Assembly (NCBI GenBank): GCA_900469955.1
Contig: UBYX01000010.1
Location: 124,001 to 188,000, forward strand
DNA length: 64,000 bases
Direction of reading: 5' to 3'
From: Hyphomicrobiales bacterium
GTDB taxonomy: Bacteria > Pseudomonadota > Alphaproteobacteria > Rhizobiales > Rhizobiaceae
Part shown: one piece after another, positions 1,307-56,442 of the stretch
Layout of the letters: each line of letters begins with the position of its first letter
Numbering within the stretch: the stretch's first letter is position 1
Notes under the pieces: model-generated
Database searches by the model: none
What the model was told of the DNA's origin: nothing
Seen by the model: only the letters and a program-made list of their open reading frames with translations
Translations under genes and position numbers: made by a program

Positions 1307-1332
1307 AACCCCTGCCGCACCGGCTTGGTTCC
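1307..1332 (-). promoter_or_regulatory. EcfG-type promoter of ku
   Basis: GGAAC, 17 bp, GGTT on the minus strand. It ends 27 nt before the Ku start codon. Its -35 abuts the -35 of the divergent promoter at 1333; together they form the palindrome GTTCCGGAAC (1328-1337). Visual match only. Confidence 0.6.
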
Positions 1333-1357
1333 GGAACAAACGGCAAGAGAACCCGTT
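1333..1357 (+). promoter_or_regulatory. EcfG-type promoter of small gene at 1388
   Basis: GGAAC, 16 bp, CGTT: an exact match to the alphaproteobacterial general-stress sigma factor consensus. It lies 31 bp before the ATG at 1388, back to back with the ku promoter. Confidence 0.7.
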
Positions 1358-1387
1358 TCCTTCCAGACGCAGCACAGGAGGGTATCC

Positions 1388-1591
1388 ATGAGCACGAACA
1401 GCAGCCCGAACGCTCCCCGCAAGGAGCGGGACGAAAAGATGACCGAGCGCTCCGCCCGCACGAAACACCAGAGCGAGGAACTGGAAGAACAGCTGAACGA
1501 AGGGCTGGAAGATACTTTCCCCGCGAGCGATCCGGTCTCGACCACGGTGACGTCCATCCCGGCCGGTACACCGAAACCACCCAAGCACTAG
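1388..1591 (+). CDS. small acidic protein with [10 protein letters not shown] motif
   Basis: A 67-residue hydrophilic protein of unknown function. It is rich in Glu, Lys and Ser, and its C-terminal half holds [12 protein letters not shown], a motif that I know from many short alphaproteobacterial hypothetical proteins. There is no membrane segment or signal peptide. The ATG at 1388 has AGGAGG about 7 nt upstream; the open frame to 1274 would run into the ku promoter, so the longer start is rejected. It is divergent from ku, has its own EcfG-type promoter and ends in a strong hairpin at 1617, so it is a monocistronic, probably stress-induced gene. Confidence 0.8.
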
Positions 1592-1616
1592 ACGATTCTC
1601 GGCAAGGTCCTGGAAC

Positions 1617-1654
1617 AAATCAGGCGGCTTCCTGGATAGGAAGTCGCCTGATTT
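1617..1654 (+). terminator. hairpin terminator after 1388-1591
   Basis: Near-perfect 17-bp inverted repeat (AAATCAGGCGGCTTCCT, GGAT loop, complementary arm with one mismatch) followed by a T-rich stretch (GATTTAT). It starts 25 bp after the stop codon. Confidence 0.75.
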
Positions 1655-1783
1655 GATTTATGGCCTGTGACTTTTTCGGGATATCCGAAACCGAGCATAT
1701 TGCGGTAAGGAGAAATACTGCAAATTTTCGCGGGGCGGGCAACTTCGGCTTGGATTTGGCCGGATATCTATTACGAGGTCGGG

Positions 1784-1960
1784 ATGGCGAAGCAGAATAG
1801 TCCGGTTGAGGAACAGGAAGTCAGGATGGGACGGCGTGTCAACCGCCGGGTTTCGGTCCTGCTCACCGAAATCGAGAAGGAAGAAGTTCCCGACCGCCTG
1901 CTCGAACTGGCCCGTGAACTGCAAAAGGCGCTCAACGGAAAGACCGGCGAGCCCGACTGA
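1784..1960 (+). CDS. NepR-like small protein, candidate anti-sigma factor
   Basis: A 58-residue ORF. Residues about 19-48 read RRVSVLLTEIEKEEVPDRLLELARELQKAL, two short amphipathic helices joined by EEVPDRLLEL. This closely resembles the second helix of NepR anti-sigma factors (E-x-VPDRFLDLL), which hold the EcfG sigma factor inactive until phosphorylated PhyR removes them. The first helix lacks the usual LRxxYDxVV residues, so a divergent NepR paralog is the best guess and an unrelated small protein remains possible. GAGG precedes the ATG at 1784. No sigma-ecfG, phyR or EcfG-type promoter is beside it, unlike classical nepR loci. Confidence 0.5.
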   Translation: MAKQNSPVEEQEVRMGRRVNRRVSVLLTEIEKEEVPDRLLELARELQKALNGKTGEPD

Positions 1961-1986
1961 CGACGATCTGAGCGGACTCCTATCCA

Positions 1987-2316
1987 CTAGAGCTGGGTCG
2001 ATATCAGATTGTCGATCCTGACCTGCCCCTCCACTACGCCCCGCGGGCCGTCCGCATCGAACCGTCCGCTCTCGTCTTCGATCACCGTATAGAGTTTTTC
2101 GCTGCGGAAGGCGCTGGCCATCTGCGTCGAATTGCCCTCCGAAGGCAGAGCGTCGATTTCAGTGAAGTCGAGTTCCGCTTCGCTTGCAACAAGACGCGCA
2201 TCGCCTGCCGTTCTCGCCCGGACCACCACTTCGCCATGCGGCGGCGAATTCTGCCAGTTCGGATCATCAGGCGCCGCAATCGGTACCAGACGGTAGATCT
2301 TCAGGCTCTCCTGCAT
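1987..2316 (-). CDS. conserved hypothetical protein (109 aa)
   Basis: Function unknown. The protein starts MQESLKIYRLVPIAAPDD and contains GEVVVRARTAGDARLVASEAE, a pattern often seen in short rhizobial proteins that resemble a single alpha/beta fold. There is no signal peptide, membrane segment or cysteine. I chose the ATG at 2316 because GGGAGG lies just upstream; the longer frame to 2358 would enter the promoter. It is divergent from the cysteine hydrolase at 2447, and a clear EcfG-type promoter (2357-2382) lies about 40 bp upstream, so stress induction is the only functional clue. Confidence 0.75.
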   Translation of the reverse strand: MQESLKIYRLVPIAAPDDPNWQNSPPHGEVVVRARTAGDARLVASEAELDFTEIDALPSEGNSTQMASAFRSEKLYTVIEDESGRFDADGPRGVVEGQVRIDNLISTQL

Positions 2317-2356
2317 TCTATCCCTCCCTTCGGCAGTCATCTCCATTCCAGCAGGC

Positions 2357-2382
2357 AACGCGATCCGAGCACCTCAAGTTCC
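2357..2382 (-). promoter_or_regulatory. EcfG-type promoter of 1987-2316
   Basis: GGAAC, 17 bp, CGTT on the minus strand, 41 bp before the start codon. Confidence 0.65.
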
Positions 2383-2392
2383 TCCGCCTGTC

Positions 2393-54790: not shown

Positions 54791-54793
54791 TCC

Positions 54794-55474
54794 TCAATGG
54801 ATCATGCGCGTCAGTCGCCGGGCATCCTTCAGCAGGCGCACGACATCCTGATCGGTGGTTTCGGTGAAATCCTGGTAATAGCGCCTGACGGCATCGAGAT
54901 GTTCCGGGGTGGAAAGGCAGATGATCTCATCTACCTCGTCGCGCAGAATTTCCAGGAAAGCCCGCGGGGCAACCGGCACGGCGACCCGGATGGAGCGCAC
55001 GCCCATTTCCTTCAACGCATGGATGCCGGCGCGGATGGTGCCACCGTTGGCGATGCCGTCATCGACGAGGATGACGTCCTGGCCCGCATGATCGTGATCC
55101 TCCGGTTCGTCTTCGCCGAAATAGATCCGGTGACGACGCTCGATCTCGGCGAGCTGATGGTCTTTTTCGGTCACCAGATAACCCGGTGGGATTTGGAAAT
55201 GCCGCGCCGCCTCCTCGTTGACCACGACATAAGGTTCCTTGCCGTCCACCACGGCGCCTATGCCGTATTCGGGATGACCGGGAGCTGCAATCCTGCGCAC
55301 AATCAGAAGATCGAGCGGAGCTCCGAGCCTTTGAGCGATCTCGAAGGCGACGGGCACGCCACCGCGGGGGAGTGCCATGACGACGGGAGCGCGTAGCGGC
55401 ATCCCTTTCATCGCTTCCGCTAGCTGCCTGCCGGCATCCTCGCGATCGGAAAAAGTTGCGCCTGAACCGAACAT
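54794..55474 (-). CDS. phosphoribosyltransferase-family protein
   Basis: A 226-residue type I PRTase fold. The PRPP-binding motif is VILVDDGIANGGTI; PRGGVPVAFEIAQRLGAPLDLLIVRRI is the N-terminal hood. Short proteins of this type occur in bacterial stress regions, often with dienelactone hydrolase-like partners, and their base substrate is unknown. GGGAGG precedes the ATG at 55474; the frame to 55492 adds only six residues. It has its own EcfG-type promoter (55567). Confidence 0.85.
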   Translation of the reverse strand: MFGSGATFSDREDAGRQLAEAMKGMPLRAPVVMALPRGGVPVAFEIAQRLGAPLDLLIVRRIAAPGHPEYGIGAVVDGKEPYVVVNEEAARHFQIPPGYLVTEKDHQLAEIERRHRIYFGEDEPEDHDHAGQDVILVDDGIANGGTIRAGIHALKEMGVRSIRVAVPVAPRAFLEILRDEVDEIICLSTPEHLDAVRRYYQDFTETTDQDVVRLLKDARRLTRMIH

Positions 55475-55566
55475 GTTATCCTCCCACAACATGTGGCACG
55501 GCCAGCAGCCGCGCCTTCCGTTTCTTCCAGCCCGATTTTCACCATACCATTGGGCGGACCTCGGAC

Positions 55567-55591
55567 AACAGTGGGGATGTCATTCGGTTCC
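55567..55591 (-). promoter_or_regulatory. EcfG-type promoter of the phosphoribosyltransferase
   Basis: GGAAC, 16 bp, TGTT on the minus strand, 93 bp before the ATG at 55474. Confidence 0.5.
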
Positions 55592-55604
55592 ATCAGCAAA
55601 AAGG

Positions 55605-55847
55605 TCAGGAGCCACCACCCTTGTGGTGTCCGCTCTCCTGATTGCGGCCGCGGACGATGGCGGGATCGTCCTTCATCGAAACATCGGCCGCGCGCATGTC
55701 GATATTGTCGCCCCGCCGGAAAGCCTCGCGGGCGGCGTCGCTACGGCTAAGGTCGGCCTTGGGATCGAAGTCCTTGCTGGCGTTCGCGGTGTTGACGCCT
55801 TTTTGAAGAATATCCCGCTGCTGCTGATGGGTCTTGTTGCCTTGCAT
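55605..55847 (-). CDS. hydrophilic small protein (80 aa)
   Basis: An Asp/Lys/Arg/Gln-rich protein without hydrophobic segment (MQGNKTHQQQRDILQKGVNT, then ADLSRSDAAREAFRRGDNID). Probably disordered, with some resemblance to hydrophilin-like stress proteins. AGGAGG lies just before the ATG. It is last of three short genes reading from 56387. Function unknown. Confidence 0.75.
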   Translation of the reverse strand: MQGNKTHQQQRDILQKGVNTANASKDFDPKADLSRSDAAREAFRRGDNIDMRAADVSMKDDPAIVRGRNQESGHHKGGGS

Positions 55848-55868
55848 GGTCGTTTCCTCCTGACCTGG

Positions 55869-56069
55869 CTATTTGTTGGCGCGACCGCGCTGATTGGGAT
55901 CGACGCCGCCAAAGCGGTTGGTGTCGTTGCCGACATCGCCCTCGTCGGTGTTTTCCCCGGCGATCTCGTCGTTGCCGGCGAAACGGTTCAGGCCTTTCGA
56001 CTGGCCGATGCCGGGATCCGCCCTAAGATCAGCATCGCTTGGCTTTGCGGTCTTGAAGTGCTTGGACAT
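55869..56069 (-). CDS. hydrophilic small protein (66 aa)
   Basis: A Gly/Asn/Asp-rich protein (MSKHFKTAKPSDADLRADPG, then GLNRFAGNDEIAGENTDEG) with repeats of NRF(A/G)G. No hydrophobic core. AAGGAG lies 7 nt before the ATG at 56069; the frame to 56102 is not used. It is the middle gene of the three-gene unit. Function unknown. Confidence 0.75.
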   Translation of the reverse strand: MSKHFKTAKPSDADLRADPGIGQSKGLNRFAGNDEIAGENTDEGDVGNDTNRFGGVDPNQRGRANK

Positions 56070-56117
56070 CTCGTGCTCCTTTCGGGCAATTGGTTGCGGC
56101 ATTTGAGCTGCAAACCG

Positions 56118-56387
56118 TCAGTGCTTCGTGCGAGAGACGAACTTGTTGAAGCGGCTGGTTTTGCCCGCTTCCGTTTCTTCTTGGTACAGGAAGGCGAGCT
56201 TGTTCTCGTCGAAGATGGAGAAGAAATCGTCCCATGCGATTTCCTCGAGCGATTCTTCCGGCTTACCGAAGTCGATACGCAGGATGCCACCTTCCTTGGC
56301 GCCTTTTACGCGGGCCGGATGGCCGCCGCGTTCCTCGATCCATTGCCGGATTTCCTTGTGACTCGTGGTTTCTACGGCTTTGCTCAT
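56118..56387 (-). CDS. conserved hypothetical protein (89 aa)
   Basis: A widespread short protein of unknown function. The pattern HPARVKGAKEGGILRIDFG then EESLEEIAWDDFFSIFDENKLAFLYQ occurs in many bacterial genomes. The compact alpha/beta make-up and the position in stress islands suggest a small regulatory or chaperone role, but this is a guess. It is first in the three-gene unit, with an EcfG-type promoter 31 bp upstream. Confidence 0.82.
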   Translation of the reverse strand: MSKAVETTSHKEIRQWIEERGGHPARVKGAKEGGILRIDFGKPEESLEEIAWDDFFSIFDENKLAFLYQEETEAGKTSRFNKFVSRTKH

Positions 56388-56417
56388 AGGGTCGTTCTCC
56401 CGGTTCTCTCATTGCAA

Positions 56418-56442
56418 AACCGATGCCCCCGACGATTGTTCC
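56418..56442 (-). promoter_or_regulatory. EcfG-type promoter of 56387-55605 unit
   Basis: GGAAC, 16 bp, GGTT on the minus strand, 31 bp before the ATG at 56387. Confidence 0.6.

Follow-up and report, generated by a model that had tools for sequence, protein, structure and literature searches.

Predicted EcfG-type promoters form a conserved cluster, with a second sigma gene and a small-RNA candidate, in a relative of Neorhizobium

The PhyR-NepR-EcfG partner switch is an established regulatory scheme. Among the EcfG (ECF15) regulons described so far, that of Rhizobium etli has the promoter motif GGAAC-N16-CGTT (PMC3892343), the promoters of RpoE2 in Sinorhizobium meliloti agree with this motif (PMC6180224), and Ku, topoisomerase IB, and GlgX are EcfG regulated in Sphingomonas melonis (PMC6599016). 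We analyzed a 64-kb stretch of a Hyphomicrobiales genome (the window; positions 124,001 to 188,000 of contig UBYX01000010.1, here C45), in which predicted promoters of this type precede ku and many other genes. The host lives in soil and, judging from its sequences, is a relative of Neorhizobium (the nearest named species for Ku are Neorhizobium alkalisoli, 98%, and N. huautlense, 95%). The locus resembles the three described regulons in the motif and its spacing, in a phyR-nepR-ecfG locus, and in the targets Ku and topoisomerase IB. It differs from them in that about a fifth of the genome's matches to a stricter form of the motif lie in 2% of the genome, near the regulators. Comparable clustering was not found reported in the literature searched, in which subscription papers were thinly covered and PMC3892343, PMC6599016, PMC6180224, PMC3616915, PMC4167512, and PMC5869019 were covered in part.

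We consider it very probable that the window forms the right-hand portion of a conserved general-stress cluster on the chromosome and that 22 sites in it are promoters for RNA polymerase carrying an EcfG-type (ECF15) sigma factor. An earlier, sequence-only reading of the window had proposed an EcfG regulon, and this proposal is supported by the motif, its spacer specificity, the placement, retention, and density of the sites, their absence from metabolic operons, and a phyR-nepR-ecfG locus at a distance of 60 kb. Beyond that reading, the present analysis adds how exceptional the density is, the regulator linkage, the existence of a second sigma gene, conservation, and a small-RNA candidate.

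Number, placement, and density of the sites

Exact matches to GGAAC-N16/17-NGTT were counted on both strands of the window. There were 23, compared with a mean of 2.59 (standard deviation, 1.80; maximum, 8) in 100 dinucleotide shuffles and a single match in the reversed window sequence, which confirms the excess of EcfG-type sites that had first been noticed. When GGAAC-Nx-NGTT was counted for x = 10 to 24 in the 67-kb cluster, 17 (x = 16) and 11 (x = 17) matches were found, versus 0 to 5 at the 13 remaining lengths. The corresponding counts in 28 ku loci of relatives were 219 and 178, versus 4 to 23, and 340 kb of background sampled from the same genome gave a modest peak (19 and 13, versus 5 to 12). 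Scattered matches do occur elsewhere in the genome (32 in the 340 kb sampled), as would be expected if the sites arose by chance, from base composition, or from a dispersed repeat, but such an origin is contradicted by the shuffles, the reversed sequence, the other spacer lengths, and spacers that vary between fixed boxes, for example, at the 18 loci of the symmetric element described below. We give practically no credence to chance, base composition, or a repeat.

A crude gene caller placed 21 of the 23 matches in noncoding DNA, and hand reading found that 22 precede something, namely, 21 open reading frame (ORF) starts and 1 small-RNA candidate. The two counts differ because an ORF of the caller (55623-56459, plus strand) conceals an 89-amino-acid (aa) ORF (56118-56387, minus strand). 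The only clearly coding match (41454-41478) lies inside a gene. Start codons chosen for the 21 protein-coding sites are 10 to 99 nucleotides (nt) past the -10 box. The sequence-only reading had counted 20 exact and 2 one-mismatch sites, all intergenic and all facing a gene start. We found 22 usable exact sites, including one at 56469 that falls beyond the end of the region it had delimited, whereas the one-mismatch pair that was meant could not be identified among several candidates. An exact site was present before each target named in that reading (ku, topoisomerase IB, glgA, DUF892, BON, PLD, UPF0104, EEP, and PRTase). As it had also stated, none precedes the ABC, Tct, or exopolysaccharide (EPS) operons in the window, and the orthologues identified in relatives likewise showed none (ABC, 0/3; TctA, 0/4; TctC, 0/4; each of two EPS genes, 0/2). 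One candidate with a mismatch, at 1612, was rejected as unsupported: for gene 1784, a site was present at just 2 of the 28 orthologues.

A stricter pattern, GGAACNWW-N13/14-NGTT, had 120 matches in the 5.79-Mb genome, versus 38 for the pattern read backwards. Of these 120, 25 are located at C45 61.9 to 180.5 kb, which is 2% of the genome, and 21 fall within 66.5 kb (Poisson P of ~4e-18 for a stretch picked after the fact). The density, which the first reading had left as a question, is thus unusual on the scale of the genome. As a background, 17 stretches of 20 kb (340 kb) were taken at round coordinates with the match lists already visible, so that sampling was not blind; they contained 32 matches (1.9 per 20 kb), versus 15 in the C45 120- to 140-kb bin (the first 16 kb of the window and 4 kb leftward). 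In noncoding DNA of the window, the odds of a site were 7.7 times those of the sampled background (Fisher P of 5e-10). An 18th stretch (L035, C32:30001-50000) was excluded from the background since it had been chosen for its visible matches; it is a second site-rich stretch of the same genome, with 9 matches in 20 kb.

Retention of the sites and extent of the cluster

Of 80 loci fetched, 28 were taken as ku orthologues (L037-L063 and L085). These 28 loci carried 9 to 18 sites each, versus 0 to 3 for the reversed pattern, and the 52 remaining loci carried 0 to 15. An orthologue was scored as having a site when one lay within 250 bp. For window genes around ku, a site was present at 204 of 223 orthologues of site-bearing genes, versus 7 of 109 orthologues of siteless genes. 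On the right side, the corresponding fractions were 17/17 for the PLD-domain gene, 17/17 for the LPG-synthase-TM gene, 16/16 for the EEP-family gene, and 15/15 for the topoisomerase IB gene, versus 0/15 for the DJ-1 gene. For another DUF892 gene (50186-50698), an exact site is missing here but present in 13 of 17 relatives.

The LPG-synthase-TM gene (53035-53973; UPF0104 in the sequence-only reading) and the EEP-family gene (54038-54790) flank a 28-bp symmetric element at 54003-54030, which would consist of two opposed EcfG-type promoters, both exact matches (54003-54028, plus strand; 54005-54030, minus strand). The symmetric form was present in 18 of 18 loci, our own included, and its middle was variable. 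Such symmetry was counted as sites with CC directly after them, and no general enrichment of symmetric double promoters was found. Sites followed by CC numbered 2 of 28 in the cluster, 14 of 397 in the 28 relatives, 10 of 119 in four relatives with the whole cluster, 20 of 132 in plasmid loci, and 0 of 32 in the background, versus 30 of 347 at control spacers. Conservation of the double form is demonstrated solely for the 54003 element.

The cluster reaches left of the window to about C45:114 to 119 kb, and the regulators are found at 62 to 66 kb. It is syntenic, with variable operons for ABC transport and EPS interrupting it. Four same-genus genomes are largely alike in gene order and in linkage to the regulators, and the gap between the topoisomerase IB and PLD genes ranges from 10 to 38 kb. 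In the stretch that separates the cluster halves (window 20764-49454), the ABC-transporter and EPS operons have no counterpart in two of the four relatives (G019 and G013); all four carry the Tct operon. At the G013 locus (L224-L227), no match for ku or ligD was found, and the second sigma gene and many site-bearing genes remain.

The term "island" in the sequence-only reading does not fit a conserved, apparently chromosomal cluster. Horizontal acquisition of a genomic island might be suspected from comparable patches on plasmids (see below), but the largely shared gene order and regulator linkage in the four same-genus genomes argue against it. Further arguments against it are that nepR and the PLD gene share a contig, 62 to 125 kb apart, in 14 of 18 same-genus genomes (they are on separate contigs in 4) and that a tRNA search of the window returned none. 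We therefore regard acquisition as improbable. No integrase was detected among the window proteins scanned, a scan that covered part of them.

Regulators and the second sigma gene

Some 60 kb to the left of the window lie phyR (C45:63377-64171; a model match above the NCBIfam cutoff), nepR (C45:64393-64494; above the Pfam cutoff and far below the NCBIfam one, and the single match in the genome), and ecfG (C45:64521-65087; an ECF model match above the NCBIfam cutoff), accompanied by a gene that resembles those of histidine kinases (NCBIfam matches weak). An exact site is present 45 nt upstream of phyR. By the established scheme, HWE-type kinases would phosphorylate PhyR, PhyR would withdraw NepR from EcfG, and the freed EcfG could open the cluster promoters. 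An HWE histidine kinase encoded in the window without a site (17774-19474, minus strand; site at 0 of 5 orthologues) is a candidate input kinase to PhyR.

One of the predicted promoters precedes a second, ECF15-like sigma gene (C45:120421-120927, minus strand), 3 kb left of the window, whose product could amplify the same set. Its neighbors are a UDG-family gene and a small gene on one side and a second ku and ligD on the other. The encoded protein shows 40% identity to the EcfG of this genome and 54% to R. etli EcfG2, and in a sigma tree the core and cluster sigmas formed separate supported groups, with the placement of long rows unsure. There is no NepR or PhyR gene alongside, the single NepR match being ~56 kb away. 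Of the 28 ku loci, 27 contain a close relative of this sigma gene, in one case as two frame-shifted pieces; the pieces, in Aliirhizobium terrae (L061:15202-15703), overlap as after a frame shift. Two more ECF15-like genes elsewhere in the genome (C29 and C26) each have a site starting 47 to 50 nt upstream. Among 47 sigma rows (at least 50% identity; our own and G019 genes counted twice), 23 had an exact site within 300 bp, and self-regulation is therefore not universal.

The R. etli plasmid gene for EcfG2 (PF00052, p42f) is the closest described counterpart, p42f gene 54673-55200 being taken as PF00052 by position. Both genes encode ECF15-like paralogues with no NepR adjoining, and both lie amid numerous EcfG-type sites, with a DUF892-like ferritin gene nearby. 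They differ in location: the second sigma gene here is on an apparently chromosomal contig, while PMC3892343 describes the members of its EcfG2 subgroup as all plasmid-borne. Related genes in L056 and L061 are likewise in records titled chromosome, and in three of the four relatives the second sigma gene is on contigs of 3.4 to 4.65 Mb. Because our contig is a 324-kb piece of a draft, its chromosomal placement is indirect, and we call the second sigma EcfG2-like only. On plasmids, 12 loci, hand-chosen from large match lists or by accession, had 132 sites versus 22 reversed; 11 carry a related sigma gene, and L124 was centered on ku. Site-rich patches surrounded the related sigma genes on most plasmids sampled. 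The excess differed among the 12 loci (sites versus reversed, 20 versus 2 in L121, 15 versus 1 in L131 from R. etli p42f, 12 versus 5 in L124, and 4 versus 0 in L122), and there was hardly any in the A. fabrum plasmid locus L188 (4 versus 3).

The presence of this sigma gene inside the cluster, its own site, its close relatives in 27 of 28 ku loci, and the site-rich patches around its plasmid relatives would fit a locally wired module in which the second sigma does most of the promoter reading and the core EcfG contributes only weakly. The cluster sites, however, resemble the site before phyR, the motif was present at only 1 of 19 EcfG2-dependent units in R. etli (PMC3892343, in part), and RpoE5 of S. 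meliloti had one putative target (PMC6180224, in part). We judge control mainly by the second sigma to be unlikely. A related idea, which is possible if doubtful, is that noncanonical EcfG paralogues stay with their own targets, each such gene marking a self-contained stress module, in which the core EcfG would turn on a local sigma and the local sigma would amplify neighboring promoters, together with a dedicated C-rich small RNA in this clade; such a module would be chromosomal here and plasmid-borne elsewhere. A motif search on the EcfG2-dependent genes of R. etli reportedly returned none (PMC3892343, in part).

For the preferred reading, that the sites are EcfG-type promoters of a conserved cluster, several observations count on the other side. 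Sites 3046 and 4311 are poorly kept (3 of 10 and 15 of 22 orthologues, respectively). The site of a sensor-kinase gene at -9928, left of the window, is kept in 0 of 7 orthologues and in 1 of the 4 whole-cluster relatives, a loss that is mostly real and not from cut loci, and a siteless gene at -4423, also left of the window, has a site in 9 of 25 orthologues. The relatives are nonindependent samples, and the gene calls are crude, at least three small ORFs having been missed by the caller. A match facing nepR-ecfG (C45:63974) lies inside phyR, may be fortuitous, and was dropped as evidence, which leaves direct regulation of ecfG through such a site hypothetical. In addition, ECF26 sigma factors recognize a similar -35 box, and RpoE6 of S. 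meliloti also raises some RpoE2 targets (PMC6180224, in part), as might be expected if the sites served another ECF sigma of this type. That alternative appears very improbable, given that exact GGAAC and NGTT boxes separated by N16/17 match the published ECF15 motif and that phyR has such a site.

Genes behind the sites, the small-RNA candidate, and their meaning

All predicted promoters that follow are exact matches; fractions give the orthologues with a site. The ku gene, encoding a nonhomologous end-joining protein (PF02735 domain match; 474-1280, minus strand), has its site at 1307-1332 (minus; 28/28), next to that of an uncharacterized 67-aa protein (1388-1591) at 1333-1357 (plus; 26/27). 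Sites at 2357-2382 (minus; 19/19) and 2393-2418 (plus; 13/13 and 14/14 in two counts) precede an uncharacterized 109-aa protein (1987-2316) and an isochorismatase-family hydrolase (start likely 2447, end 3034). They are followed by 3046-3071 (plus), for an uncharacterized 61-aa protein (3170-3355), and 3361-3385 (plus; 27/27), for a DUF892 ferritin-like gene (3439-3936). Next are 4311-4336 (minus), for an uncharacterized 82-aa protein (4034-4282), 4406-4430 (plus; 14/14 and 19/19 in two counts), for a DUF2934 gene (start likely 4460, end 4849), and 4986-5011 (plus; 24/28), for the glycogen synthase gene glgA (to 6627). An uncharacterized 95-aa protein (9078-9365) has its site at 9396-9420 (minus; 22/22), and a 67-aa ORF (9868-10071) has one at 9803-9827 (plus; 3/3). 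The cytochrome c oxidase set (coxB at 14569-15618, continuing leftwards to 9974) is preceded by 15687-15711 (minus; 3/3) and an uncharacterized 66-aa protein (15829-16029) by 15752-15776 (plus; 15/15); the DJ-1/PfpI gene (16062-16622), which lacks a site of its own in its orthologues, comes after the latter. The topoisomerase IB gene (16624-17730) has its site at 17740-17764 (minus), and the BON-domain gene (19715-20542) has one at 20597-20621 (minus; 1/1).

In the right half, sites precede a 58-aa proline-rich ORF (51043-51219; site 50991-51015, plus; 20/20 matches, some genomes twice), the PLD-domain gene (51598-53055; site 51494-51519, plus), a phosphoribosyltransferase-domain gene (54794-55474; site 55567-55591, minus; 18/20 matches), and the uncharacterized 89-aa protein (site 56418-56442, minus; 17/17 matches). 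Going by domain names, the products of the cluster would fit survival of dormancy and desiccation: Ku/LigD end joining, a UDG-family protein, topoisomerase IB, glycogen synthase, ferritin-like DUF892, envelope proteins, cytochrome oxidase, and a C-rich small-RNA candidate.

The last site (56469-56493, plus strand), which is kept upstream of the candidate in relatives, precedes no convincing ORF, and the 95 nt that follow fold at a z score of -4.2. Fold, conservation, and the upstream site point to a candidate small RNA of ~95 nt (56498-56592, plus strand, ends approximate), with a predicted 5' hairpin with an ACCUCCA loop, a conserved C-rich linker, and a terminator-like hairpin; it has two CCUCC-like stretches. 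By BLAST, 23 of 57 genomes of the genus, our own included, contain this stretch, and a covariance model added G019. A core motif was located at 18 of the 23 loci, and each of the 18 has an exact site 64 to 69 nt upstream; the remaining 5 also have an exact site, as does G019 (by eye). The C-rich linker is present in all 23 rows, and the ACCUCCA loop is absent from the most diverged ones. RNAalifold predicted 17 pairs, 7 of them with two-sided change in at least one sequence, and the covariation term was small (-0.99). In our genome, the covariance model detected one copy, with weak matches elsewhere on C45 (E values of 0.014 and above). Of 199 family genomes sampled, 4 gave matches, and three of these 4 belong to the same genus. 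An Rfam search of the window gave no match at the gathering threshold.

GsrN is an EcfG-dependent small RNA of Caulobacter, and homologues in Rhizobiaceae have been proposed near phyR (PMC5869019, in part). The candidate seems somewhat like GsrN in its EcfG-type promoter and predicted C-rich unpaired stretch, and here it has a terminator-like end. Unlike the proposed Rhizobiaceae homologues, it is located at C45:180.5 kb, ~116 kb from phyR (63 to 65 kb). Near phyR itself, a C-rich, hairpin-like region was seen by eye behind the site at C45:61937 (C45:61962-62110; L004:1962-2110), and this region is a possible GsrN/ReC64 counterpart.

With a second sigma gene, a small-RNA candidate, and about 20 matching promoters gathered near the core regulators, the locus would offer a bounded, testable target set for extra EcfG paralogues, and about ten uncharacterized small proteins are marked as likely stress genes.

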